This document shows positions 2,973 through 42,683 of a DNA stretch of 42,683 bases, piece after piece. This stretch comes from a virus, in the IMG/VR virus record IMGVR_UViG_3300005095_000165, positions 1 to 42,683 of that record. One strand, given 5' to 3'. Each line of letters starts with the position of its first letter. The stretch's first letter is position 1. The translations under genes were made by a program, and so were the position numbers. Under the pieces are notes generated by a model that saw only the letters and a program-made list of their open reading frames with translations, was not told the origin of the DNA and did no database searches.

Positions 2973-3530
2973 CTAACCCTTTAAAAGCTTTTCTACCCCA
3001 CTCAAATCAACTCCTACACCTTTGTTTGTGTTATCAATAACCACATCAAATACAAAATCATCTAAATCTCGTTCTGATATATGGTCTGTTGGTATAATAT
3101 TATCATCATTCACACGAATTGTAAATATCTGATCAAACTCTTTGGTTAAATATTCATACTCGCTCTTAAATCTAAAGTCACTAACAATCACTAGCTCACT
3201 CTCTGGTATATGCTTAGTGAATAGTTCTACCCACACATCATCACCAAACCACATCTTCATAGCCTCAGTTCCAAATCTTTGTAAGATGGTTCTGAAATCC
3301 GAGATTATCAAGTTACCAGCTTTTAAGTCCAACTCCTCATTTTTCCATTTATCCAAATCATCCATTTTTATATCTAGGGTGTTAGCTACAATATGTTTAA
3401 GAGGGTATGCAAAACTACAAATTGTACCACCAAACATTTTGTTAATCTCATTTGAGACAAAATCTTTACCTGCTCTTTTGTACCCACTAATTAATAGTAA
3501 TTTCTTACTCTGGTTACGGTTACGTTTCAA
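2973..3530 (-). CDS. Deoxynucleoside monophosphate kinase (T4 gp1-like)
   Basis: This 185-residue P-loop kinase would convert dNMPs to dNDPs and feed phage DNA synthesis. The Walker A region is GYKRAGKD near residue 17, where a GxxxxGKD form is typical of T4-type dNMP kinases. An aromatic/Arg-rich central segment (about 80-105) and the pair SDFR (about 116-119), then a conserved DHxSERxLD-like motif (about 148-156), match the substrate/lid region of that family. It starts with TTG behind AAGGAG. With the MazG-like and ThyX-like genes on the other arm it forms a nucleotide-supply set. Confidence 0.82.
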   Translation of the reverse strand: MKRNRNQSKKLLLISGYKRAGKDFVSNEINKMFGGTICSFAYPLKHIVANTLDIKMDDLDKWKNEELDLKAGNLIISDFRTILQRFGTEAMKMWFGDDVWVELFTKHIPESELVIVSDFRFKSEYEYLTKEFDQIFTIRVNDDNIIPTDHISERDLDDFVFDVVIDNTNKGVGVDLSGVEKLLKG

Positions 3531-3804
3531 AACTCACTTCTCCTTAGAAAAAAAAATTTTTAGTAAATATTAAACATATTATCAGTTTTCTACTTATTTA
3601 TTTTTTTTTTACCATTATCTATTTATTTACTGTAACTTTTGTAACTTTGTAACCAAAAATAGAAAACTCCCCAATTTAGGTACTTCTAAAGGATGGTTTA
3701 AGTTACAATTCAGTTACGTTTTATTATTCCTTAAGATTAACAATTTATCAAGTTGATATTTTGTTCAACAATTTGCATTTCAGTTACAATTCAGTTACGT
3801 TTTA
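3531..3804. other. Intergenic region with GTTAC/GTAAC repeats, possible replication origin
   Basis: The stretch has no gene. It is very AT-rich, with homopolymer runs near 3550 and 3600-3610. GTAAC occurs at 3632, 3641 and 3649; its complement GTTAC occurs at 3702, 3713 and 3783, plus 3794 just to the right. Repeated short sites beside a primase-helicase gene are typical of phage origins, but this is inference from position. Confidence 0.4.
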
Positions 3805-3823
3805 TTATTCCTTAAGATTAACA
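3701..3823. repeat. 42-bp perfect direct repeat at the primase 3' end
   Basis: Bases 3701-3742 and 3782-3823 are identical (period 81). Each copy holds two GTTAC sites 11 bases apart. The right copy includes the last codons and stop of the primase gene, so the left copy carries a duplicated gene end. Tandem duplication or slippage is likely; an iteron role is possible. Confidence 0.85.
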
Positions 3824-5976
3824 TTTTGTAGCTCAATCCCTCTAACTGTAATACTCTTACTAATTTTCCAAATTGATAATTTGTAACCTTTTATAAACGG
3901 TTTCACAAAATATTTTTTATACTCAGATGGGCGAGAAAAACTCTTACCGGTGATGTGCAAATAGACTCTTTTTAACAAATTGTTAGACCATCTACAACTA
4001 CTAACAGCCTCCCTAACCTCTTTAATTGTAATATCAAAATCACTCTCATCAATATCAAGCAACTCGATAATAGACTCTAAATCACCTCGTGAGATAGCAT
4101 CGCCTAACAGATCCAGATCGTTTGAGGTCTGCTCTATAACTTTCTGTTTAGCATCAGATACCTCCATAGGTCTAGTAGCTTTTATCTCATCAACTTCAAA
4201 GTTCATAAGATATTTCCCAAACTCCTTAAACTCTTTAATAGCCTTTTTATAACTCTTATCTCCTTTCCACCACTTGTTAGCAGTTAAAGGTTTATTCGAT
4301 ACAACCATATTATATCTACGATCATCCTTATCAACCTCAATAGGGTTAGCTTTATTAGAGTTAATGATGATGTTTACATAGTTATCTATTGGTATCTCTG
4401 GCATATTTTTCATATTCAACCTAAGAACTGGATCAGCTACATAGGCTTTCATCTTACCAGCAACTCCGTGTCTTCCGTGAAAATCAGAAGCTATCTCGTT
4501 GAGGTGTAAGAACTGAGTGTTATGAACATACGAATTGAAGTTACTTTGCAAGTCACTATCACCTACATTTAAAGAACAGTTCTCATACCGTAGTATATGA
4601 GCTATTACATCCACTATCAAACCTTTACCAGAACCACTTGCACCATAAAAGACCCAAGCAACACCAGTACGTTTACCAGTCTGCACTATGTACGCCAACC
4701 AATGCAGGAAATATTCCTTAGCTTTCAAGTCACTCAAAAATAGGTTATCCAAAACTTTTGAGATAGTTTTAGGTATCTTTTTACAACCACCCTCCACACA
4801 CTCAAACATCTCAGCGTTACCACTATATGTATTTATAGTAGGATTACCAAACTCATCAAACCCATCTCGACCATCACGCTTAGTAGGGTTGTACTCAACA
4901 ATCTTTGCAGGTATGGAACATAATCGCTCATTAACATCTGTTGTACTCATATAACCACTTTTGCTTACACAAGTCTGTACGAAGTTCTGCTTATTATAGT
5001 AGATAACCTTACCATTAAGTATCTCAGTAAAAACACCCAAGTTCGTAGCCCATACAACTTCACCCTTGAACATTGAACCAAGACCCTCAGCATCCTCTGG
5101 TAACTCTTTAAGCATCTCACGCATTGTTCCAATACTTATATTAAGTCGCTTCTTGATCTCTTTCATAGTACGTTCAAGCTCTAACGCACCACCTTTTTGT
5201 GCTTTCTTTAAAAGTTCTCTAACCTCTTCATCACTAAAGTCACCACCAACATCATCTTTCACAACTTCTGAAACAGACTCTTTAGGTTTTTTCAACTTCT
5301 CTTGTAGATATAACTCAGCCCCCCATTTTATACGATCAAGCATAAGCTTAACCTCTCTAGGTTTATTACCAAGATATTTCTCAACATAGTTCATACCATT
5401 GAGTATTACCTCATCAACAGTTAGGCCATTTCTAAAGTCACGCATAGCATACGCCAAAGTAGTATCGTGTATCTCACCATTTGGAACTCTCTCCCATTGG
5501 ACTCTGTTTTTCATCTTGTCACGAGAGATACTCATACGCTTTAGGAGATATTTACGAAGCTCTTTTGGCATTTTCTTATATATCTTACCCACACGCTTAT
5601 ACATAATGTTTTTGTTAGACCCTAGATATTGATTGAAGATAATACCACCATCTGATCTAACATCTACAAGCTTACTATATGAAGCTTTGTTTACAAACTC
5701 AGATGATTTTTTATGTTTGAAGTAGTAGTGATAACCACGCTTAGACTCAACAGTAGGTTTTAAACCTTTAAGTATCTTACGAAGCTCTTTATCCAATTCG
5801 CTAAAATCTTTTGTATCAACATCAAGCACCACCAAACCATCACCAGTACGAATAGCCGTAGCGTTTGCCTCACTCTTATCAAGCTTACCCCAACCACCGC
5901 CAAAATATACTGTTTTCTTTTTAGCTTCTTTATCCCAACCTAACTTAGCATAGATCGTTCTATCCTTGAACTTCAT
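3805..5976 (-). CDS. Bifunctional primase-polymerase / SF3 (D5-type) helicase
   Basis: A 723-residue replication protein. The N-terminal third looks like an archaeo-eukaryotic Prim-Pol domain, with the acidic motif VVLDVDTKD near residue 50 and a basic stretch ending in HYYFKHK (about 85-91). The middle is charged, and the C-terminal half carries a D5-like SF3 helicase with Walker A GASGSGKG near residue 450, an acidic Walker B-like segment, and the LNEIAS and IIINSN motifs. It would synthesise primers and unwind DNA at the fork. The ATG at 5976 (MKFKD) is chosen because GAGAGGG lies just upstream; an upstream start at 6033 would overlap the previous gene much more. The 3' end is part of a direct repeat. 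Confidence 0.85.
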   Translation of the reverse strand: MKFKDRTIYAKLGWDKEAKKKTVYFGGGWGKLDKSEANATAIRTGDGLVVLDVDTKDFSELDKELRKILKGLKPTVESKRGYHYYFKHKKSSEFVNKASYSKLVDVRSDGGIIFNQYLGSNKNIMYKRVGKIYKKMPKELRKYLLKRMSISRDKMKNRVQWERVPNGEIHDTTLAYAMRDFRNGLTVDEVILNGMNYVEKYLGNKPREVKLMLDRIKWGAELYLQEKLKKPKESVSEVVKDDVGGDFSDEEVRELLKKAQKGGALELERTMKEIKKRLNISIGTMREMLKELPEDAEGLGSMFKGEVVWATNLGVFTEILNGKVIYYNKQNFVQTCVSKSGYMSTTDVNERLCSIPAKIVEYNPTKRDGRDGFDEFGNPTINTYSGNAEMFECVEGGCKKIPKTISKVLDNLFLSDLKAKEYFLHWLAYIVQTGKRTGVAWVFYGASGSGKGLIVDVIAHILRYENCSLNVGDSDLQSNFNSYVHNTQFLHLNEIASDFHGRHGVAGKMKAYVADPVLRLNMKNMPEIPIDNYVNIIINSNKANPIEVDKDDRRYNMVVSNKPLTANKWWKGDKSYKKAIKEFKEFGKYLMNFEVDEIKATRPMEVSDAKQKVIEQTSNDLDLLGDAISRGDLESIIELLDIDESDFDITIKEVREAVSSCRWSNNLLKRVYLHITGKSFSRPSEYKKYFVKPFIKGYKLSIWKISKSITVRGIELQNVNLKE

Positions 5977-6324: not shown

Positions 6325-6352
6325 ATGGTGAGTTATTGATTTAGCTCACCAT
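6325..6352 (-). promoter_or_regulatory. Strong hairpin between RHH gene and the next gene
   Basis: ATGGTGAG (6325-6332) and CTCACCAT (6345-6352) are perfect 8-bp arms with a 12-base loop, just past the stop of the RHH gene. No T-run follows in either direction, so it may be an attenuator, an RNA processing site or a weak terminator that lowers expression of the genes beyond. Confidence 0.5.
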
Positions 6353-6359
6353 CACTTAA

Positions 6360-6539
6360 TTACTTTTCACTTTTCATAGCGTTCATAACAACATATCTGA
6401 TAAAGCGACTAACACTAATACCTTTGTTCTCACAAAACTCTTGTAACTCTTTATGTTCACTAGCTGTAACTTTAAAACCTACGACTTTATCTCTGTTTTC
6501 AGGCTTCAAAGCGTAATCACGAGCTTGTTCTTTTGACAA
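6360..6539 (-). CDS. Small ribbon-helix-helix transcription regulator (TTG start)
   Basis: A 59-residue protein with a charged N-terminus, a short beta-strand VVGFKVT (about 19-25), a helix ASEHKELQEFCEN and a second helix VSRFIRYVVMNAM. This is the strand-helix-helix pattern of Arc/CopG-type DNA-binding dimers. The TTG start at 6539 is preceded by AAGGAGG at good spacing and replaces an absent ATG. It is the first gene of the leftward arm, about 26 bases below the start point of the promoter at 6572-6601. An operator-like site lies directly above that promoter, so it is the best candidate for the regulator that reads the repeated GTTAAAC elements. Repressor or activator cannot be decided. 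Confidence 0.72.
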   Translation of the reverse strand: MSKEQARDYALKPENRDKVVGFKVTASEHKELQEFCENKGISVSRFIRYVVMNAMKSEK

Positions 6540-6571: not shown

Positions 6572-6601
6572 AGTATACATAAAAACTACATAAAAAGTCA
6601 A
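6572..6601 (-). promoter_or_regulatory. Sigma-70 promoter of the left arm
   Basis: On the minus strand TTGACT (6601-6596) is followed after 18 bases by TATACT (6577-6572). It would start near 6565 and read the RHH gene, the 98-residue gene and the primase. The operator-like element at 6609-6627 sits just upstream of the -35 box. Confidence 0.7.
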
Positions 6602-6608
6602 ACTTTTA

Positions 6609-6627
6609 GTTTTACCTTTTGTTTAAC
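6609..6627 (-). promoter_or_regulatory. Operator-like element, inverse copy of the cassette core
   Basis: Read on the minus strand this 19-base site matches GTTAAAC-AAAAG-GTTAAAC of the cassette at 15405-15474 with one mismatch. It contains two direct half-sites, as many RHH proteins use. It lies between the divergent first genes of both arms (6539 and 6687) and could control both. Confidence 0.55.
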
Positions 6628-6686
6628 CTTTATTTAAGATTTACTGTGTCATACTACGACAATCAAAACAAAAAGGAGTCTCGAAA

Positions 6687-10913: not shown

Positions 10914-10997
10914 AAACTCTCGTATTTAGCTGACAACTGCATAGTGTTGTATTGTTTTTTAACAACTATATTTTTTTTGACAATAGGAAAGACTATA

Positions 10998-11037
10998 TAG
11001 AGGTTATTTAAAACGTAGCCTCTATTATGGTTTTTTT
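10998..11037 (+). terminator. Rho-independent terminator after the polymerase operon
   Basis: TAGAGGTTA (10998-11006) pairs with TAGCCTCTA (11016-11024) with one wobble, and a run of seven T follows at 11031-11037. It should end the 6687-10913 operon just before the regulatory cassette that starts the next one. Confidence 0.7.
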
Positions 11038-11105
11038 GTACGAACATTAAGTTAAACGAAAGGTTAAACCTTATATACTTTTAACATATTAAATAAAAAG
11101 GTGGT
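11036..11105 (+). promoter_or_regulatory. 70-bp promoter/operator cassette, copy A
   Basis: This block is 68/70 identical to 15405-15474. It contains TGTACGAACA, two direct half-sites in GTTAAACGAAAGGTTAAACC (11051-11070), a -10 box TATACT (11074-11079) and a downstream AAGGTGG ribosome site. The half-sites overlap the -35 position. It would drive the 11114-15419 operon. Confidence 0.7.
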
Positions 11106-11113
11106 GAGTGATT

Positions 11114-11206
11114 ATGACACTAACAAAAAAAGAACTTATGCAAAGATTAGTAAAACAACTTATTAATGAAATGTATGATGATTTAACATTAATTAGGAGC
11201 GAGTGA
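11114..11206 (+). CDS. Tiny leader-like protein (30 aa)
   Basis: A 30-residue frame directly after cassette A, with an AAGGTGG ribosome site and a stop that overlaps the next start (TGATG). The product is an amphipathic helix with Lys-rich first half and hydrophobic/acidic second half. It may be a real small protein or a leader that aids translation of the next gene. No homology is recognised. Confidence 0.5.
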   Translation: MTLTKKELMQRLVKQLINEMYDDLTLIRSE

Positions 11207-11568
11207 TGATGGAGCTACCTAAAATAGAGACATTAAGTGCTGTTTTAAATTTACCAATTGTTGAAGTGTTTGAATTAAACGGTGAGGTATGCGTGCGTAT
11301 ATCAGGAGAACCTTCATCTGTTCATAGATGCCATAACAGATATGAATTAGCACATAAGTGTAAAGAATGGGCTTATAAAAATAAATTTTCAATCTCTTCT
11401 GCTAAAACACTACATGATGGGTGGATTGCTGAAATTACAGGTCAGGTGATGTTCAAAGCAAGTACAGAACCAGAAGCTGTATTTAAAGCTTGTAATTGGA
11501 TATTTGATAACACTAAACCAACAGAAGCTACATTTAAACCAAAAGGTGTTGTTAGGAAACTGTTTTGA
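11206..11568 (+). CDS. Hypothetical protein
   Basis: A 120-residue protein with AGGAG upstream of tandem ATG codons (11206, 11209); the second is also possible. It contains a His/Cys-rich part (RCHNRYELAHKCKEW, about 42-56) and two similar strand-helix sections, suggesting a small alpha/beta domain with an internal repeat. No metal-site consensus can be confirmed. It precedes and overlaps the exonuclease gene, so a role in DNA processing is possible but unproven. Confidence 0.75.
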   Translation: MMELPKIETLSAVLNLPIVEVFELNGEVCVRISGEPSSVHRCHNRYELAHKCKEWAYKNKFSISSAKTLHDGWIAEITGQVMFKASTEPEAVFKACNWIFDNTKPTEATFKPKGVVRKLF

Positions 11569-12329
11569 AAACTCGTGATTTAATTATTGATGCTGATCAC
11601 ATACTATTTCTAGTAGCTCACTCAAAATCTTATGATAGTGGTTTTGATGAAATACTAGAGTCTGATGATGACTGGGGTGAAGATGCTAAGATAGATATGA
11701 GACCTTACAAAGAACACTTTAAAGCCATTGTTAAAGATTATGAGTTAACAGCAGAAGTAGAGTCGATATGTTATGGTTGGGAGCTAGGTAAAACTAGAGT
11801 AATTATTAGCGATGATACAAATTTTAGATATGATCTTTACCCAGAGTATAAAGCATCTCGTACAGAAAAATCTGAGGTTTTATCAAAGCTTAAAAAGTGG
11901 GCTAAGAAAAAGTATCAATGCGAACCAAACACCGAGGCTGATGATGTAGTAGCATACTATGTTAGAAAAGGTGGTGTTGGTGTAACAACAGATAAGGACT
12001 TACTATATGGCGTAGCAGGTATTTGGTATAACTCACACTTCAAACATAAGTGTTGGATAAGAACCAACAAAAAAGATGCACTCTATTTCTTTAAATGTCA
12101 ATCCTTAGCTGGTGATACTGTTGATGAGATACCAGCTCTACCACGAGTAGGTTTAGCTACCGCTAGAAAGTTGTTGAAAAAGTACGGTGAAAAGTGGTCT
12201 GATATTCTAAGAGTCTATAAAGATTATGGTTTTGATAAAGAGTATATGGTTATGAACACACGATTAGTTTGTATGACTCAATGGAGTCCAAAAAAAGGTA
12301 TTAAATTATGGGAGTTTCCAAATGAATAG
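11565..12329 (+). CDS. FEN-like 5'-3' exonuclease
   Basis: A 254-residue nuclease of the PIN/FEN superfamily (T5 exonuclease or T4 RNase H type), which removes RNA primers and flaps. The acidic metal ligands are visible as IDADH (about 9-13), the YKASRTEK arch-side motif (about 97-104), EADDV (about 124-128) and TDKDLL (about 139-144). It then has a helix-hairpin-helix-like part with GDTVDEIPALPRVG (about 184-197) for DNA binding. It starts with TTG and overlaps the previous gene by four bases. Its stop overlaps the next start by eight bases. Confidence 0.85.
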   Translation: MKTRDLIIDADHILFLVAHSKSYDSGFDEILESDDDWGEDAKIDMRPYKEHFKAIVKDYELTAEVESICYGWELGKTRVIISDDTNFRYDLYPEYKASRTEKSEVLSKLKKWAKKKYQCEPNTEADDVVAYYVRKGGVGVTTDKDLLYGVAGIWYNSHFKHKCWIRTNKKDALYFFKCQSLAGDTVDEIPALPRVGLATARKLLKKYGEKWSDILRVYKDYGFDKEYMVMNTRLVCMTQWSPKKGIKLWEFPNE

Positions 12330-13287
12330 TGGTTTTGAAAAAAGAAAAGTAAAAAAAGAAAAGATGTTATCGTGGTCTTTAGATAAAAAAATAAAACACG
12401 CAAAAAAGAGAATAAGACAATTCTATAAAGAATTAGATGGAAAAGTATATATTGCATTTAGTGGTGGTAAAGACAGTGTTGTTTTAAAGCATTTAGTTAA
12501 ATCATTATATCCAGATGTTCCATCTGTTTTTAGTAATACTACAAATGAGTATTTAGAAATTTTAGATTTTATAAGAGAGTATCATAAAGATACTATATGG
12601 GTTAATCCTAAAAAAACATTTATAGATATTATGAAAACTGATGGTTTCCCTTTAGTAAGTAAAAAAGTATCAAGGGGTATTAGATATTTAAAAAAAGGCA
12701 CTACTATTAAAAATAAAAATCATCACAATTTATTAAGAACTGGTATAACTGCTGATGGAAAAAAAGCACCATCATTTAAAATAGCTAAAAAATGGTTATT
12801 TCTTGAAAATGAAGATTTTAATATTACTGAACAATGTTGTGATATTTTAAAAAAAGAACCTTTACACCGTTATCAAAGAGAAACTGGAAGATTTCCATAC
12901 CAAGGTGCTCAAATGAAAGAGAGTGGTACTCGTGAACTTAACTGGATAACTTTTGGTTGTAATATTATATCTGATAAAACAAAAGTTTCCAGACCATTAT
13001 CAATTTGGACAGAAGATGATATTTGGGAATATATAAGATTAAACAACTTACCATATTCATCAATATATGATGATGTATTAGATCAAGATGGAAATGTTAT
13101 TGTTAAAGGTGAAAAAAGAACTGGTTGTGCTTATTGTGGTTTTGGTGCAAATTTAGAAAAAGGTGATGATAATAGATTTAAAAGATTATCTATTAGAAAA
13201 CCTAAACAATTTGAAAAAATGATGAATTTGAAAAATAATGGAGTTACATTTCGAGAAGCTTTAAAGAAAGTAGAAGTAGATATTTAG
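12322..13287 (+). CDS. PAPS-reductase-family PP-loop protein
   Basis: A 321-residue protein of the phosphoadenosine phosphosulfate reductase/PP-loop ATPase family. The nucleotide-binding loop SGGKDS is at about residues 47-52. A CC pair lies near 174 and a GCAYCGFG motif near 270, possibly for an iron-sulfur cluster or redox pair. Phage members are often annotated as PAPS reductases, but sulfate reduction is doubtful. The fold also serves tRNA thiolation, queuosine-type and DNA phosphorothioation enzymes. The base composition is more AT-rich than its neighbours, which hints at transfer. Confidence 0.78.
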   Translation: MNSGFEKRKVKKEKMLSWSLDKKIKHAKKRIRQFYKELDGKVYIAFSGGKDSVVLKHLVKSLYPDVPSVFSNTTNEYLEILDFIREYHKDTIWVNPKKTFIDIMKTDGFPLVSKKVSRGIRYLKKGTTIKNKNHHNLLRTGITADGKKAPSFKIAKKWLFLENEDFNITEQCCDILKKEPLHRYQRETGRFPYQGAQMKESGTRELNWITFGCNIISDKTKVSRPLSIWTEDDIWEYIRLNNLPYSSIYDDVLDQDGNVIVKGEKRTGCAYCGFGANLEKGDDNRFKRLSIRKPKQFEKMMNLKNNGVTFREALKKVEVDI

Positions 13288-13299
13288 AAAAGGTTAAAA

Positions 13300-13533
13300 A
13301 TGAATAAGATGCACTCATTGTTAGATATGATTAGAAAAGTTAAACAAACAAACCAATATGATTGTAAAATAGTTATACAACTATCTCCATCAGATAGAGA
13401 TTATTTTACATCTATTAGTGATTGTAGTATTGTAAATGAAATATTAAAGAGAAATACACTGTTTGGGTATAGATTAGATGTTTCACCTAAATATGTTGAA
13501 ATGAAAGTTGTAGTTGATGAAAAAAGCATATAA
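13300..13533 (+). CDS. Hypothetical protein
   Basis: A 77-residue unknown protein with AAAAGG upstream of its ATG. It has a central SPSDRDY segment and beta-type C-terminus. It overlaps the next gene by 17 bases and shares the AT-rich codon use of the PP-loop gene, so the two may have been acquired together. Confidence 0.65.
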   Translation: MNKMHSLLDMIRKVKQTNQYDCKIVIQLSPSDRDYFTSISDCSIVNEILKRNTLFGYRLDVSPKYVEMKVVVDEKSI

Positions 13534-13789
13534 ACAGCTCAGAAAAAAGCTCAAAAATTCTTTCACACCAATCTCAAAAGGTAATGATTATAAAACCTAT
13601 GGTGGTGTAGGCGAGTGGTTTATACACTCTGGTATCAAGCCAACATCAAAACATTTAAATATTGTATGTACTATCTTTGGAAGTGTTCCATACCCTTTTC
13701 AAGAGCAGGATAGAAAAGTTATCTTGAAATATCTACGAAAACATAAATATAAGGAGTTTAAAAGTGAGTTTAAAAAACCACTTAAATAA
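13517..13789 (+). CDS. Hypothetical basic protein
   Basis: A 90-residue Lys/Phe-rich protein. The ATG at 13517 follows a weak ribosome site; a TTG at 13514 is an alternative. Conserved-looking blocks GGVGEWFIHSG (about 28-38) and VPYPFQEQDR lie in the middle and may form a small nucleic-acid-binding fold. It overlaps the helicase start by 26 bases, indicating coupled translation. Confidence 0.65.
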   Translation: MKKAYKQLRKKLKNSFTPISKGNDYKTYGGVGEWFIHSGIKPTSKHLNIVCTIFGSVPYPFQEQDRKVILKYLRKHKYKEFKSEFKKPLK

Positions 13790-14954
13790 AGCTCAACAAA
13801 AAGCATCTAAAAAACTTCAAAAAAGAGTTAGGACTTATGGGATAGCTTGTTTATGGGGTCAAATAAGATCAGGTAAGAGTAGAGCTTTCCTAGATGCTTC
13901 AAAAGGTTATAGAACACTTGTTGTAACGAAAAAAGATGCTATCAATGGTGTACTTAGTGAAGCAAAAGAGATTGGTGTAGATGTTGATGTGATCAATTAT
14001 CACTCAGTACATAAAGTAGATTGCCCAGATGAGTATCAACTGATTATTTTCGATGAGTGTCATTTATACATCTCACAAGCTAAACCAAAACCATCTACGA
14101 TATGGAAAAAGTGTCAAGCAATATCTAAAGGTAAGTTTATAATCTATTCAAGTGGTACACCAACAGCTGAGGGGTACGGAGGTTTATACTATATGTTAAA
14201 ACTATCCTCTTGGAGTCCATTTAAAAAATACACTAGATTTACACTTTGGTTTAAAGATTATGGTGTACCAGAACAGATTTACATCGGTAGTAGGTCTGTT
14301 GAGAGTTATAAAAAAACACAAGCTAAGAAGATTAAAAAGGCAATTAAACACTTAGTTGTTACACTTACTCGTAAAGATGCAGGGCATAAACACGAGTCTG
14401 AGGATATTTATCATAAAATACCTATGACCAAAAAGCAAACAAAAATCACAAAAGAGCTTGATAAACATAAAGTATGGTCTAAAAAAGGTTGTGAGATACT
14501 TATTGATAGTGGTGGAGCTAAACTGCTTACAAAGAAACATCAGATAGCAGGTGGTGTTGGTGTTATGTGTGATGAAGATGTTTTATATAAATTCAAAAAA
14601 GAGCCTAAAAAGGTTGAGTATATAAAAAAGAACTTTGATGTTGACACCACGATCATTTTGAGCTTTTATAAACACGAGCAAGAGTATTTATCTAAAATAT
14701 TTCCTCATACTGGATCAGTTACAAAGCTATCAAGTGGTGTTGATTTAAGCCATTATAAAACAATGATTGTGTATAGTATGTCATTCAGTGCATCAAATTA
14801 TGAGCAAGTGCGTGGTAGATTGATGAATGTTAATCGAAAAACTCCTATGTTTTGCCACTATTTAGTCTCAGGTATTGATGAATATGTACTAGAAGCTGTT
14901 AAGAATAAAGAGAACTTTACAGCCAGTTGGTACAATAAAAAACTAAAGGATTGA
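13764..14954 (+). CDS. DECH-box SF2 helicase (SNF2-like)
   Basis: A 396-residue superfamily 2 helicase. Motif I is WGQIRSGKS (about 30-38), motif II DECH (about 97-100), motif III SSGTP (about 129-133), and motif VI is represented by YEQVRGRL (about 350-357). The length fits the compact phage helicases of replication or recombination. It starts with GTG behind AAGGAG, and its stop overlaps the next start (ATGATG). A VRR-NUC nuclease lies two genes on, an association commonly seen in phages. Confidence 0.88.
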   Translation: MSLKNHLNKAQQKASKKLQKRVRTYGIACLWGQIRSGKSRAFLDASKGYRTLVVTKKDAINGVLSEAKEIGVDVDVINYHSVHKVDCPDEYQLIIFDECHLYISQAKPKPSTIWKKCQAISKGKFIIYSSGTPTAEGYGGLYYMLKLSSWSPFKKYTRFTLWFKDYGVPEQIYIGSRSVESYKKTQAKKIKKAIKHLVVTLTRKDAGHKHESEDIYHKIPMTKKQTKITKELDKHKVWSKKGCEILIDSGGAKLLTKKHQIAGGVGVMCDEDVLYKFKKEPKKVEYIKKNFDVDTTIILSFYKHEQEYLSKIFPHTGSVTKLSSGVDLSHYKTMIVYSMSFSASNYEQVRGRLMNVNRKTPMFCHYLVSGIDEYVLEAVKNKENFTASWYNKKLKD

Positions 14955-15151
14955 TGATGCAAGTAGCCATACTACGGTTGTTAAAAGAAAATAAAGATAT
15001 TCCAGTATCAACAAAAGAACTCAAAGAGCGTTTTGGAAAAGATATTGATCAGGACTTAGAAACACTTGAAAAAGTAGGTTTAATAGTTTCTACAAAAGAG
15101 ACTAAAAAGTTTGGAAAGTTTTACACACTAAGTGCAGAAACTAGAGAGTAA
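14954..15151 (+). CDS. Small winged-helix-like protein
   Basis: A 65-residue protein with the pattern helix, helix, helix, beta-hairpin: VAILRLLKENKDIPVSTKELKERF... followed by LEKVGLIVSTKETKKFGKFYTL. This is the shape of a winged helix DNA-binding domain. It could be a regulator or a helicase partner. The ATG at 14954 overlaps the helicase stop. Confidence 0.65.
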   Translation: MMQVAILRLLKENKDIPVSTKELKERFGKDIDQDLETLEKVGLIVSTKETKKFGKFYTLSAETRE

Positions 15152-15419
15152 AATACAATCTGAGATATTAAAGTATCTCAGAACTTACAAAAAATCATTT
15201 ACATATAAACACGAACCATCCCCTACTGGTATTCCAGATATACACTTCATCCATAAAGGTAAATCTATTTGGTTTGAAGTGAAGCGATCCTCTAAACATA
15301 AACCATCTAAAATTCAAAAGAAGCAACACAAACGCCTACGCAAAGCAGGTTGTAAAGTATTTGTTGTGTGGTCTAAACATCAAGTTGTAGATATTTTAAC
15401 CAATTTGTACGAACATTAA
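15132..15419 (+). CDS. VRR-NUC family nuclease
   Basis: A 95-residue nuclease of the PD-(D/E)xK superfamily. Family features are the N-terminal LESKIQSEILKYL helix, GIPDIHF with the catalytic Asp (about 32-38), WFEVKR with the E-x-K pair (about 48-53), and a QKKQHKRLRKAG segment before the VFVVWS strand. It likely cuts branched DNA with the nearby helicase. A GTG start overlaps the upstream gene. The last four residues and stop are encoded by regulatory cassette B. Confidence 0.85.
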   Translation: MQKLESKIQSEILKYLRTYKKSFTYKHEPSPTGIPDIHFIHKGKSIWFEVKRSSKHKPSKIQKKQHKRLRKAGCKVFVVWSKHQVVDILTNLYEH

Positions 15420-15474
15420 GTTAAACAAAAGGTTAAACCTTATATACTTTTAACATATAAAATAAAAAGGTGGT
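15405..15474 (+). promoter_or_regulatory. 70-bp promoter/operator cassette, copy B
   Basis: Two bases differ from 11036-11105. The block carries TGTACGAACA, the GTTAAACAAAAGGTTAAACC double half-site (15420-15439), TATACT (15443-15448) and an AAGGTGG ribosome site for the gene at 15480. It overlaps the last codons of the VRR-NUC gene. It would drive the 15480-18759 operon. Confidence 0.7.
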
Positions 15475-15479
15475 ACATT

Positions 15480-15743
15480 ATGAGTAAGTTTATAGCATTG
15501 ATGGATAACAATGGAAACTTAGTTTATGAAAGAGTTGAAAACATAGATGCCGTTCATCAGGTTGAGTTTGGAGATAATAGGTCGTTAAAACCTAATAGTG
15601 CTGAGAATTGTAAAACAAAGTTAATCATAAAAGGTAAGAGTAGTAACACTAGATATGATAGTGATAAAACCATAACATACAACTATCGTTATCTTTTCGT
15701 ACAAGAAGATGTTGAAACTGTTATGATGAGAATGGGTTGCTAA
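15480..15743 (+). CDS. Hypothetical protein
   Basis: An 87-residue protein, first gene after cassette B, with an AAGGTGG ribosome site. It is beta-rich, with KFIALMDNNGNLVYERV at the start and a charged centre. No known family is recognised. Placement directly behind a promoter cassette suggests strong early expression. Confidence 0.75.
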   Translation: MSKFIALMDNNGNLVYERVENIDAVHQVEFGDNRSLKPNSAENCKTKLIIKGKSSNTRYDSDKTITYNYRYLFVQEDVETVMMRMGC

Positions 15744-15745
15744 TT

Positions 15746-15958
15746 ATGGATTATCTAATGATAGGTGAAGTTTGTATATATATTGCAATAGGTTTGTCGT
15801 TTGTTCTTTATCTATATGATGAACTTAAAAAAGAGTGTTACTTAACAAGTTGTTTTGAAGCAATTTTGCTTGGAATATGTATAGTATTTCTTTGGCTACC
15901 TTATATATTGTTTGTGATGGTAGTAAGAATTTTCTTTTATTTTGTTGATAAGGAGTAG
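15746..15958 (+). CDS. Small membrane protein, two transmembrane helices
   Basis: A 70-residue protein with two hydrophobic helices (about 7-24 and 40-64) joined by a charged loop with two Cys. The ATG at 15746 follows the previous stop by two bases; an in-frame TTG at 15737 is less likely. It is not in the lysis region, so superinfection exclusion or membrane takeover is a better guess than holin, but neither is shown. Confidence 0.65.
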   Translation: MDYLMIGEVCIYIAIGLSFVLYLYDELKKECYLTSCFEAILLGICIVFLWLPYILFVMVVRIFFYFVDKE

Positions 15959-15961
15959 TTT

Positions 15962-16201
15962 ATGCAGTTACAAGATATATTGGTAGCAATAAATGGTGCT
16001 GCTGCTAAGTTGGAAGATAAGGTTTTAGTTGATGTTGAAGATTTAGTATCTTTGAAAGATCACATTGAAGATTTACGTAAGTCAAACGGAATAATACGCT
16101 CTAAAAATCAACTATTAAATGTTGAGATTAAACGCTTGAAAAATGACTTAGAGTTGGCTTTAAATATGCGTGAGTACAAACCTTTAAATGAGTATGTATA
16201 A
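15962..16201 (+). CDS. Hypothetical coiled-coil protein
   Basis: A 79-residue protein dominated by a heptad-like helix from about 25 to 68 (Leu, Ile and Val at spaced positions). An AAGGAG site precedes the ATG. The stop overlaps the start of the next gene (TAATG). It is likely a small dimer, perhaps a partner of its neighbours; function unknown. Confidence 0.7.
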   Translation: MQLQDILVAINGAAAKLEDKVLVDVEDLVSLKDHIEDLRKSNGIIRSKNQLLNVEIKRLKNDLELALNMREYKPLNEYV

Positions 16202-16641
16202 TGAAGTGTGAACGTGAAGCAAAAGCTGTAATTTATAGCAGTTTCGTAATATTCTCAATAGATACATTGTTAACTCGTGAAGATAGAACTAAAGGTAGTG
16301 TTATCAAACTACGTCAAAATATTGCTAAAGAATTAATGCAAAAGCGGTTTGAACCGCTTATAAGTTTAAGTAATAAAATTTGGATTGAGTTGTTTGAAAC
16401 ATTCTCAAATAAAAATATGAAAATTGTTGTTAGTGATTTCATCGAGTTCATAGTCCTTGAAAACTCAGATATATTTACTGAGTTCTACTCAAAGAATTTT
16501 GTAGATAATGCTTGGAACGCTTCTTTTAAAGTTTCACAAGAGGGTGTTTCAAAAGAAATATTAGCATCTTCTCGTGAAGTAACCAATGAGCTGTTCAAAA
16601 TAGCAGGTAAAAAGATTTATGATTACTGTAAAGGAGTATAA
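16201..16641 (+). CDS. Hypothetical helical protein
   Basis: A 146-residue protein that appears all-helical and is rich in Phe, Ile and Lys. It starts one base inside the previous stop and ends three bases before the next start, so it is part of one translation unit. No motif is recognised. Confidence 0.75.
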   Translation: MKCEREAKAVIYSSFVIFSIDTLLTREDRTKGSVIKLRQNIAKELMQKRFEPLISLSNKIWIELFETFSNKNMKIVVSDFIEFIVLENSDIFTEFYSKNFVDNAWNASFKVSQEGVSKEILASSREVTNELFKIAGKKIYDYCKGV

Positions 16642-16644
16642 ATA

Positions 16645-16842
16645 ATGATTGAGGAATATCTTGTAAAAGATTGCAAAAAGGTTGCTGATTTTTCAGATAA
16701 ACAGATAGGTATTCACTATGATATTACATACAATGATATAAGTATGAAAGACGGTTCAATAACATTCTTTGATATAGAGTATGAAGATCATCAAAAGATA
16801 CGTGAGTACATTTCTAAAATGGGGTTGTGGAGTAATGAATAA
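16645..16842 (+). CDS. Hypothetical protein
   Basis: A 65-residue acidic protein with AAGGAG upstream of its ATG and a stop that overlaps the next gene. It is mixed alpha/beta, with paired strands around SMKDGSITFFDIEYED. Not recognised. Confidence 0.7.
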   Translation: MIEEYLVKDCKKVADFSDKQIGIHYDITYNDISMKDGSITFFDIEYEDHQKIREYISKMGLWSNE

Positions 16843-16981
16843 ACACGATGTAGATAATATTAAAAGTTGGTTTAGAGGTTGTTGTAAGTTCGTAAAGTTT
16901 TTCAAATACGAGCTAGGTTTACTTAGTGTTGTCACACTACTAGGTGTTGCTATAATCTTAGTAACATTTATCAAATATTAA
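16835..16981 (+). CDS. Small single-pass membrane protein (48 aa)
   Basis: A 48-residue protein with a basic, Cys-pair-containing N-terminus and one hydrophobic helix (about 26-46). The ATG at 16835 has GTGGAG upstream and overlaps the previous gene. An in-frame upstream start at 16781 lies deep inside that gene and is less likely. It probably sits in the inner membrane with its N-terminus inside. Confidence 0.6.
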   Translation: MNKHDVDNIKSWFRGCCKFVKFFKYELGLLSVVTLLGVAIILVTFIKY

Positions 16982-16990
16982 GGAGCGATA

Positions 16991-17599
16991 ATGAATATTA
17001 TACAAAGGTTAGAAGCGTGGGCTATGAGCCGACACATCTCAGAACAGTTACCAAACAAAGCTGATTATGTAGCAAACGTTGTTGGTGAACTTGGTGAGTA
17101 TTATGAAGCTGTTAAGAACAAAGATGAGAACGAGACTGTTGATGCTATTGCTGATATTATCGTGTTCAGCATTACAGAGGTTTTCAAAGCATTTAAGAAC
17201 TATCCAGTGATTAGTGCTGTATATGAAGATGATGAGTATTATGCTGAGTTAGTAGCTATGTACCAAAAGTTTGGATATGAGTCTAACAGATCAATATTCA
17301 TCTTTACTGTTGTAAAAGAGATCGGAGCTGAGTCAAGTAAGTATCAATACCTATTTAACACTATCAATACTTGCTATAATAAGCTTGTTAATGATGGTTA
17401 TGATATTCGCTTGGTTATGGATGAAGTTCTAAAGGTGTTAGAGTCTCGTACTGGTACTTGGTCTGATGAAGCAGGTAAGTTTTTAAAAGATGAGTCACTA
17501 GAAGCTAAAGCACTTTGGTATGAACCAGATTACAGTAAGTGTAAATTACCAGTTGTTTTGGAGGTTATTGAAGATGTTACCGAAAAAAACAGAGATTAA
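16991..17599 (+). CDS. MazG-like nucleotide pyrophosphohydrolase
   Basis: A 202-residue protein with the all-alpha NTP-pyrophosphatase signature: GELGEYYEA (E-x-x-E, about 32-40) followed by DAIADIIVF (about 50-58, E/D-x-x-D), which bind magnesium and the triphosphate. MazG-type enzymes hydrolyse NTPs or dNTPs to monophosphates, and phage versions may lower alarmone or remove unwanted nucleotides. The extra C-terminal half repeats a helical pattern and is longer than in minimal MazG proteins. GGAG ribosome site. Function fits with the ThyX-like and dNMP kinase genes. Confidence 0.78.
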   Translation: MNIIQRLEAWAMSRHISEQLPNKADYVANVVGELGEYYEAVKNKDENETVDAIADIIVFSITEVFKAFKNYPVISAVYEDDEYYAELVAMYQKFGYESNRSIFIFTVVKEIGAESSKYQYLFNTINTCYNKLVNDGYDIRLVMDEVLKVLESRTGTWSDEAGKFLKDESLEAKALWYEPDYSKCKLPVVLEVIEDVTEKNRD

Positions 17600-17831
17600 A
17601 AACTCAATCATTCATATCTTGGTTACAGAGGGTGGTTTACCAGTAAGTAAAGCCACTAAAGAGTGTAGTACTATTTTTGATATGATTGATGAGTGTTGTG
17701 AAGAAAAAGTAAGTGTTGATACAAAAACACCATCACTATTCGATGTTAAAGTTTGTAAATACTGTGAAGCAACTTTTACAAATTCTATGGAGATGTTAGA
17801 GCATCAAGATAAATGTTCACAAGGAGTTTAA
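17574..17831 (+). CDS. Small zinc-finger-like protein
   Basis: An 85-residue protein whose C-terminus carries CKYC, then twelve residues, then H and, after three more, C (about 62-82): a C2HC zinc-finger pattern. The N-terminal half has a short helix and an acidic CC pair. The ATG at 17574 has GGAGG at good spacing and overlaps the MazG-like gene by 26 bases. It may bind DNA or a host protein. Confidence 0.7.
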   Translation: MLPKKTEIKNSIIHILVTEGGLPVSKATKECSTIFDMIDECCEEKVSVDTKTPSLFDVKVCKYCEATFTNSMEMLEHQDKCSQGV

Positions 17832-17834
17832 ACT

Positions 17835-18035
17835 ATGGAAATAGACTTATCAAAATATAAAATTACGCTATGTGATTTAGATGGTAGGCATATACATTTA
17901 ACAGTTCTCGATAAAGAGTCTAAAGTATATGTTGTATCACAACTTGAAAAATCAAAAGAAGTTTTATTATCAGAGCATATAGAACTATCTATTAAACAAT
18001 TAGAAAAGGTTAGAAATGAAAATAGAAGTAATTAA
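17835..18035 (+). CDS. Hypothetical protein
   Basis: A 66-residue protein with beta-strands in its first half and a charged helix at the end. AAGGAG lies upstream, and its 3' end overlaps the ThyX-like gene by 20 bases. Not recognised. Confidence 0.7.
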   Translation: MEIDLSKYKITLCDLDGRHIHLTVLDKESKVYVVSQLEKSKEVLLSEHIELSIKQLEKVRNENRSN

Positions 18036-18759
18036 AACACCTACTAAGGTGACTAAGAAAGCGTTACAAGAGTATTTAGCTGAATGTGTATCAGTAGTTC
18101 GTGATAAAGAGCCTAAGAGTGCTGAGAAACTATGGGATAGACTACTTAAAGAGTCTGTTGGTGGAAAACCTAGTCGTGTCTTTGAGTATATTCCTTGTAC
18201 TTTACCTAGTATTAACTATATGAGATCATTTGGTTTTTTAATGCATGTGTTTGGTTTTGTAACAACAGATGGTAAATATCATACAAATGCTAGGGAGCTT
18301 TTGAATGTTGGATGTACTATTAAAGAGATATTACAATATACTGATTTTTCAAACTATGTAGCGTTTAAATGTGAAACACCTTACTTTATCTACGGACAAG
18401 TATCAACACATACACAACTAACTACTGTGTCACACTCACAACGATATGCTGATTGTAATAGAGGTTTTTGGAAACCACCAGAAGTAGGTATGAGCCAAGA
18501 TGAGTGGAACAAAGGTATTGATCATAGATGGCGTAGATGGGAACTGCGAAAAGTTATGAAAGATGCTGGTATAACTCGTAAAGAGGTTTTTGATCGTGGG
18601 TCTGATATGTTACAAAACAGAGTGTTTACTATCGGTGGTTATACAAATAACCCTAATGCGTGGTCTCACTTCATTAAGCAAAGACTTGATAAACACACTC
18701 AGTTAGAGACTAGAGAGTTTGTTAAGCTATTTGATGAACATTTTGAGGGTAAAGTTTAG
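18016..18759 (+). CDS. thyX: ThyX-like flavin-dependent thymidylate synthase with altered signature
   Basis: A 247-residue protein of the length and layout of ThyX, which methylates dUMP using FAD and folate. The C-terminal block WSHFIKQRLDKHTQLETRE (about 215-233) matches the conserved ThyX helix that binds dUMP. The diagnostic RHRxxSxNxxSxRY motif is replaced by THTQLTTVSHSQRY (about 134-147): the central His, last Ser and Arg-Tyr remain, while both flanking Arg are Thr. Activity or substrate may therefore differ. AAAAGG ribosome site. It is the last gene of the right arm. Confidence 0.75.
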   Translation: MKIEVIKTPTKVTKKALQEYLAECVSVVRDKEPKSAEKLWDRLLKESVGGKPSRVFEYIPCTLPSINYMRSFGFLMHVFGFVTTDGKYHTNARELLNVGCTIKEILQYTDFSNYVAFKCETPYFIYGQVSTHTQLTTVSHSQRYADCNRGFWKPPEVGMSQDEWNKGIDHRWRRWELRKVMKDAGITRKEVFDRGSDMLQNRVFTIGGYTNNPNAWSHFIKQRLDKHTQLETREFVKLFDEHFEGKV

Positions 18760-42078: not shown

Positions 42079-42107
42079 ATAACACCTTGTTAGTTAGTTT
42101 TACCAAA

Positions 42108-42137
42108 AGTATAACACATTGTTCGTACATTTTGCAA
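42108..42137 (-). promoter_or_regulatory. Putative late-operon promoter
   Basis: On the minus strand TTGCAA (42137-42132) is followed after 18 bases by TATACT (42113-42108), about 30 bases above the small terminase ATG. Between the boxes lies TGTACGAACA (42129-42120), the same word that opens both 70-bp cassettes on the right arm, so one factor may act on early and late genes. Confidence 0.55.
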
Positions 42138-42385
42138 CAACTTCATATTAATTAATATAGTATCACTGCTTAAAAATTAATCAACAAGTTGTTTAAAATA
42201 TGGTTAATAAAAATGCTAAAACTAAGCGGTTTTCGGAGCTCGCCCCCTCATGAGATTAGAAAACAAAAAGTAGTACCTAATAAAAATTATCGTTTACCTC
42301 GCAGACCCCTAAAATAGGGCGTTTCAGGCGGTTAACATAATGTTTGATAATTTGTTTGTGATTTATTATAGCAAGTTGATATAGT

Positions 42386-42471
42386 GTTGCGTGTTGATCG
42401 TATGTGTATAGCGTGTAAGCTGTTGCGTGTTGATCGTATGTGTATAGCGTGTAAGCTGTTGCGTGTTGATC
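42386..42471 (+). repeat. 36-bp tandem repeat, 2.4 copies
   Basis: Two exact 36-base units (42386-42421, 42422-42457) and 14 bases of a third. Each unit contains TTGATC and two GTGT-type words. Tandem sites next to the terminase genes are typical for terminase or replication initiator binding. Confidence 0.9.
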
Positions 42472-42497: not shown

Positions 42498-42541
42498 AAT
42501 TGTAAAGTATATACTTTTGAAGTTATGAGGTTTTAATATAC
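42498..42541 (+). repeat. 44-bp direct repeat (also at 48-91 = 42640-42683)
   Basis: The 44 bases recur exactly 142 bases further on, across the circle junction. Each copy contains the perfect 14-base palindrome AAAGTATATACTTT and TGAGGTTTTA. Similarity continues beyond the exact part (GTGTTTTAAA follows both). Possible origin, packaging or regulatory site. Confidence 0.85.
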
Positions 42542-42592: not shown

Positions 42593-42683
42593 TGATGATT
42601 AGATATGTGTTAATACAGTATTACCAGTAAACATTTAATAATTGTAAAGTATATACTTTTGAAGTTATGAGGTTTTAATATAC
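42593..42683. repeat. Terminal direct repeat, right copy
   Basis: Identical to 1-91. It shows that the window ends join to form a circle; it is most simply an assembly overlap. Confidence 0.9.

Follow-up and report, generated by a model that had tools for sequence, protein, structure and literature searches.

Why should a phage carry almost the same promoter region twice, in front of two different operons, and what would such a pair of sites answer to? The question arises in a virus record of 42,683 bases (32% G+C), the whole of which we call the window. A sequence-only reading of this DNA had proposed that a 70-bp promoter and operator cassette was duplicated ahead of two operons of the right arm and that one regulator fires both together. 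We conclude that the duplication of promoter and operator is real and that the two copies probably belong to a regulon of a small ribbon-helix-helix (RHH) protein, a reading that is well supported by the arrangement of the sites.

The window and its repeated block

The ends of the window overlap by 91 bp, and the assembly is therefore circular. The genes form a tailed-phage set. Terminase, portal, head and tail genes belong to a large block that reads leftward, the primase block also reads leftward, and the arm that reads rightward encodes DNA polymerase, exonuclease, helicase and endonuclease. No tRNA was found in the window, and no integrase was present among its family matches.

The two segments reported to match at 68 of 70 bases (11036-11105 and 15405-15474) do so, and the full ungapped block is 71 bp long, with identity dropping sharply to background on either side (Table 1). 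No other interspersed repeat in the 42.7-kb window comes near this block in length; the remaining long repeats are local tandem copies and the overlap of the circular ends. An artefact of the end overlap was considered and ruled out, as that overlap is a different repeat. Every element named in the sequence-only reading is present, namely TGTACGAACA (11037-11046 and 15406-15415), the twin GTTAAAC half-sites, TATACT, and the ribosome site AGGTGGT (11099-11105 and 15468-15474), and the description of the block as a promoter, operator and leader cassette heading two operons holds. Its description as non-coding needs one correction: ORF 15132-15419 ends within copy B, whose first 15-16 bases are therefore coding.

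The half-site GTTWAAC is a 7-bp pseudo-palindrome, and in both cassettes a pair of them, 12 bp apart, lies over the -35 position and the spacer, at about -35 to -29 and -23 to -17. With up to three mismatches allowed, TTAAACNAAAGGTTAAAC has six matches where 0.75 are expected, a number that none of the shuffles reached. Compared with sigma-70-type hexamers, the cassettes have a host-type -10 (TATACT, 5/6) and a -35 that agrees at 3/6 (TTAAAC); a consensus promoter scan made no call at the TATACT of either cassette. The starts predicted from the -10, near 11086 and 15455, agree with those given in the sequence-only reading.

Table 1. Positions of the features discussed in the text, numbered along the window
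Feature	Coordinates	Strand	Remarks
RHH protein, proposed regulator	6360..6539	-	59 aa; Pfam NikA-like, 34.1 bits (cut-off 27)
RHH gene promoter	6572..6601	-	TTGACT, 18 nt, TATACT
Operator array between divergent operons	6597..6638	-	CTTAAAT, GTTAAAC, GTAAAAC, GTTTGAC at 11/12/12 bp
Putative extended -10 of divergent rightward operon	6650..6655	+	CATACT preceded by TGT; weak, inferred from sequence
Intrinsic terminator of polymerase operon	10997..11025	+	directly before cassette A; RNA fold -17.6 kcal/mol, z -5.4
Cassette A	11035..11105	+	promoter, two half-sites, leader, ribosome site; 69/71 identical to B
First half-site of A, GTTAAAC	11051..11057	+	over -35 position; invariant in 5/5 cassettes
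Second half-site of A, GTTAAAC	11063..11069	+	12 bp on, in spacer; GTWAAAC in 5/5 cassettes
-10 of A, TATACT	11074..11079	+	invariant in 5/5 cassettes; predicted start ~11086
Operon behind cassette A	11114..15419	+	30-aa ORF, unknowns, 5'-3' exonuclease, PAPS-reductase-like protein, helicase, endonuclease
Cassette B	15404..15474	+	promoter, two half-sites, leader, ribosome site; 69/71 identical to A
3' end of phage endonuclease ORF (within cassette B)	15405..15419	+	final four codons plus stop (LYEH, stop); source of TGTACGAACA
First half-site of B, GTTAAAC	15420..15426	+	
Second half-site of B, GTTAAAC	15432..15438	+	
-10 of B, TATACT	15443..15448	+	predicted start ~15455
Operon behind cassette B	15480..18759	+	small unknown genes, MazG-like protein, gene weakly matching thymidylate synthase
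Candidate further operator at terminase promoter	42097..42115	-	GTTATAC and GTAAAAC 12 bp apart over TATACT; weak, 2 mismatches in 14

The cassettes in two relatives

Conservation of the block in relatives had been put forward as a check, and the block was found in both of the relatives that we identified, each encoded on a contig from the same metagenome. In the closer one, G002 (IMGVR 3300028534_000073), the DNA is about 96.5% identical to the window upstream of copy B and 92% identical downstream, and the counterpart of cassette B (L001 3577-3647) matches at 67/71 positions. As this contig begins within the operon, copy A falls outside it. The other relative, G001 (IMG/VR 3300028534_000041), has its gene order in common with the window, with 43-87% protein identity over most orthologues (polymerase 79%, exonuclease 76%, helicase 64-74%, and the RHH protein 51% over 49 aa), and it retains the RHH gene, the divergent array and both cassettes at matching places; it is the only diverged relative known to have the same operator. 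Behind B the two genomes begin with different genes, the first in G001 being the orthologue of ORF 16645-16842, the fifth gene in the operon of the window. In all five cassettes, TTAAGTTAAAC, AAAGGT, AAAC and TATACT occur at fixed spacing, and what is conserved is the half-sites and the -10, while the flanks drift. As a separate observation, the helicase ORF of G001 (L003 8789-11017) encodes 742 aa, and the 396-aa helicase of the window matches it in two pieces; the insertion in the G001 gene is possibly an intein.

Direction of copying and concerted evolution

In copy B, the letters TTG TAC GAA CAT TAA are the 3' end of the endonuclease ORF 15132-15419. The same letters are present in copy A, where they are non-coding and stand immediately behind an intrinsic terminator. 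Because this scrap is coding in B and non-coding behind a terminator in A, copying ran from B to A. In G001, too, the aligned block in B starts within the end of the nuclease gene, and A lies behind a stable stem-loop. Ahead of the start codon the tail is GAGTGATT in copy A of the window, AAGTGATT in copy B of G002 and ACATT in copy B of the window, which suggests that the cassette formerly extended to the start codon and that copy B of the window was probably altered later.

The same observations dispose of TGTACGAACA as part of the control site, the role that the sequence-only reading had given it. It encodes the C-terminus of the nuclease in B, and it is not needed, since the cassettes of G001 are without it. 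We also rejected it as the site of a second regulator, on the same two grounds and because exact copies of it lie inside genes of G002. It follows that the exact copy of TGTACGAACA near the terminase promoter (42120-42129) is probably a coincidence.

When the cassettes of the window and G001, the two genomes that have both copies, were aligned, 12 columns grouped the copies by genome and none grouped them by position, which is the pattern of concerted evolution. Copies A and B of the window differ at 2/71 positions, and copy B of the window differs from its G002 counterpart at 4/71. Since G001 has a cassette at each position, the two sites must predate its split from the window, and yet copies within a genome are more alike than positional counterparts. 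The near-identity had been attributed to recent duplication or strong selection; this is supported, and the comparison points to repeated copying. Shared selection alone would be insufficient because the leaders and the coding scraps are identical as well. We consider repeated copying between the sites, through conversion or recombination, the likely cause of the homogeneity.

It could be argued that all this reflects a one-off recent duplication with no regulatory meaning, the copies being alike simply because they are young. Such an event would account for the 97% identity, the B-to-A polarity and the hitch-hiking piece of the nuclease gene. However, the presence of both cassettes at matching positions in G001 means that the two sites are old, and it is the half-sites and the -10 that are conserved while the flanks drift. 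We regard this explanation as very improbable.

A candidate regulator and its proposed operators

The RHH protein is the best candidate for the regulator, as judged from the sequences. NikA-like, the Pfam entry that it matches above the curated cut-off, is an RHH family. An AlphaFold model of modest quality (pLDDT 73) has the two helices of the class, predicted at residues 26-39 and 43-58; in this model of the monomer the strand does not form. The nearest folds found with Foldseek were ParG, Arc and CopG, all with E > 0.1 and none significant. One further sequence (L004, 32%) serves as a row in the RHH fold alignment, and no conclusions rest on it.

The sequence-only reading found the sites in the cassettes and missed an array of the same half-sites that separates the RHH gene from the divergent operon. 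None of 2000 shuffles matched this array with GTTWAAC, at k=3 or k=4. Most of the -35 in the RHH promoter falls within its half-site GTTTGAC, as in G001, and the operator overlaps the promoter of the proposed regulator itself, a feature of autoregulated Arc-like and F55-like systems. GTTWAAC is twofold symmetric, as expected for a site bound by a symmetric dimer. DNA with GTTAAACAAAAGGTTAAAC would be the target of the RHH protein. Across the window, half-site pairs at 12-bp spacing with at most two mismatches number seven, and five of these are in non-coding DNA, which makes up 7% of the window; such pairs are found in the divergent region and at the two cassettes, and in weak form at the terminase promoter. 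At the terminase promoter of G001 (L015 570-588), GTTTTAC and GTTATAT are found 12 bp apart. Right after the RHH gene there is a stem-loop, GGTGAG/CTCACC, at 6325-6352 on the minus strand (-10.2 kcal/mol, without a clear U-tract), which may act as an attenuator separating the RHH gene from the primase genes.

A similar arrangement in a Thiohalocapsa phage

Thiohalocapsa phage LS06-2018-MD03 (OP947165.1), whose polymerase is only 42% identical to that of the window, likewise encodes an RHH protein, annotated as an 'Arc-like repressor', at the same divergent position, and has duplicated promoter cassettes. The two copies agree at 69/75 positions and lie one on each strand, with half-sites ATTTAAT (or GTTTAAT), ATTAAAG and ATTTAAT in steps of 11 and 12 bp that run into TATAAT; a third place has five such half-sites. 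Both phages have TTWAA half-sites in an 11/12-bp phase that differ in their outer bases. MD03 is set apart from the window by its ATTWAAT/G half-sites, its perfect TATAAT, and the placement of its three sites at other genes and on both strands. In its divergent region TTTGAC again stands at the -35, and the half-site phase there is only suggestive (13/2000 shuffles at k=3, 138/2000 at k=4). The paper describing MD03 does not discuss promoters or repressors.

The RHH proteins of these phages differ in the strand. In the register of P22 Arc, the strand residues that would touch DNA are V19, G21 and K23 in the window and G001, and H, A and L in MD03. This change may go with the change in the outer half-site bases, a lead drawn from three sequences only. 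A bolder idea, which we hold tentatively and think somewhat doubtful, is that the lineage actively homogenises its cassettes: after a change in the RHH protein and its operator, copying from one cassette, along with the end of the gene next to it, would carry the new operator to the other operon, and the whole regulon would shift its specificity together. Separate instances would then be seen in the Thiohalocapsa phage and in the window/G001 pair.

These comparisons bear on whether the RHH gene merely happens to lie next to the array, the sites being read instead by a host factor or by the 66-aa winged-helix-like product of 14951-15151. That product has an HTH_11-like match, below the cut-off, and orthologues of both it and the RHH protein are encoded in G001. 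On the other hand, the array is directly upstream of the RHH gene in the window and in G001, the RHH gene of MD03 is likewise divergent, with half-sites that differ at the outer bases, and a 7-bp twofold-symmetric half-site every 12 bp suits RHH dimers. A different regulator seems to us quite unlikely.

The core of the Thiohalocapsa cassette had no exact match in viral contigs; the cassette of the window had only weak matches in annotated phages and was not found in 84,980 species genomes. A tblastn search for relatives of the RHH protein in phages found none. A polymerase profile recovered 23 other phage contigs, mostly 26-40% identical, on which a three-sequence RHH profile found no clear RHH gene, and the polymerase profile found no relative in bacterial genomes. 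GTAAAACTAAAAGTTTGAC occurs in viral contigs L047-L049, which represent one stretch of an unrelated phage; as this stretch lacks an RHH gene and encodes nothing that matches a protein of the window, we attribute the matches to chance. Another phage (L037) has a duplicated leader of a different sort, 31 bp long and ending in ATG, with copies 100% identical (1110-1140 and 2412-2442) behind TGATCGAT-like sequence.

Other repeats were seen in these genomes. Between the primase and dNMP kinase genes of the window (3500-3850), GTTAC/GTAAC motifs recur and a 50-bp repeat is present at 3697-3746 and 3778-3827 (96%); G001 has GTAAC repeats at the corresponding place (L016 480-600), and MD03 has GGGAAC repeats beside its primase gene (L042 1874-1918). 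The region in the window is a possible replication origin. Upstream of the terminase genes, a 36-bp tandem repeat occupies 42385-42471, and other tandem repeats are found in the corresponding region of G001 (L015 1-173, L016 4216-4399) and MD03 (L043 1-133, L044 19909-20491). The long non-coding stretch before the terminase genes also holds a repeat of about 45 bp with the palindrome AAAGTATATACTTT, at 42501-42541 and 42640-42683 (equal to 48-91), the copies being 142 bp apart.

Repression or activation

We consider it probable that the RHH protein represses cassettes A and B together with its own gene, and that A was copied from B and has been kept like it. Host RNA polymerase would initiate at the TATACT of each cassette. 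RHH dimers would bind side by side on the GTTWAAC half-sites 12 bp apart, and two dimers at A and two at B would cover the -35 and the spacer and block initiation, so that the exonuclease-helicase-endonuclease operon and the small-gene operon that follows it would be turned down together. At 6597-6638 the protein would cover its own -35 and, for the divergent polymerase operon, the -35 region; this would amount to negative feedback, and the outcome may be early expression that then limits itself. Cassette A was copied from B together with the 3' end of the nuclease gene, and repeated copying, probably through conversion or recombination, would keep the two alike within each genome. The sequences themselves show the layout of the cassettes, its conservation, the likeness of the copies in each genome and the B-to-A direction, and from these we infer binding by the RHH protein, repression as its sign and the way in which copying takes place.

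The proposal that one regulator 'fires' both operons together therefore survives in part. Coordinate control of the two operons is well supported by their shared sites; firing fares worse, the site layout fitting repression. Repression appears likelier because the half-sites cover the -35 and the spacer, and also the -35 of the RHH gene itself. Activation, by the RHH protein or by another phage protein, would suppose that a poor -35 depends on an activator bound over it. The TTAAAC of the cassettes is indeed poor, and the consensus scan misses the promoter. Most RHH proteins are repressors, but AmrZ and NikR can activate (PMC3325190), as can AvtR at low concentration (PMC5569661). However, the sites are centred at about -26, within the core promoter, unlike the usual positions of activators, and a like half-site forms the -35 of the good promoter of the RHH gene. 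We think activation unlikely, though by no means negligible.

This kind of regulon is already known. What is unusual is homogenisation within a genome, with a scrap of coding sequence that reveals the direction of copying. The window offers a concrete small regulon in an uncultured phage, with putative regulator, operator and targets in one genome and a relative for comparison, as well as a clear case of a regulatory site that was copied along with a coding scrap and kept alike in each genome. It bears on how a phage adds an operon to a regulon, or moves a whole regulon to a new operator sequence.

Comparison with known systems

The immI region of phage P22, with its Arc repressor, resembles the system proposed here in having a small phage RHH repressor. 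The operator of Arc lies between the -10 and -35 of a divergent promoter pair and consists of half-sites, spaced by about 11 bp, to which the dimers bind. In the window, by contrast, the regulator heads the replication arm, the sites are GTTWAAC arrays, and two other operons, both distant, have copies of the site as well. No search gave a significant match to the Arc sequence. Autogenous control by Arc is announced in the title of Youderian 1982 (cited in PMC2629481).

The SAS and ESAS elements of cluster K mycobacteriophages are likewise repeated blocks before phage genes, including the ribosome site, and the ESAS, which are 17-bp inverted repeats, carry half-sites as our cassettes do (PMC3203893). 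Unlike the cassettes, SAS are 13-bp elements, GGGATAGGAGCCC, at the start codon of many genes, and no regulator is assigned to them in the available text of that paper. GGGATAGGAGCCC is not found in the cassette of the window, which thus falls outside the SAS/ESAS group of cluster K.

Further parallels come from archaeal viruses, as far as the available text of PMC5569661 describes them. SvtR and AvtR are RHH regulators of their own genes and of distant viral promoters; they differ from the present case in that their operators are imperfect inverted repeats, and AvtR has two RHH motifs and can activate. F55 of SSV1, a 6.3-kDa RHH protein, represses its own promoter and several early promoters through tandem repeats. 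It belongs to an archaeal virus, acts in lysogeny control and uses a different repeat sequence, and copied promoter cassettes such as those of the window are not described for it in that text. By analogy, F55 is nonetheless the known system nearest in logic to the RHH regulon that we propose.
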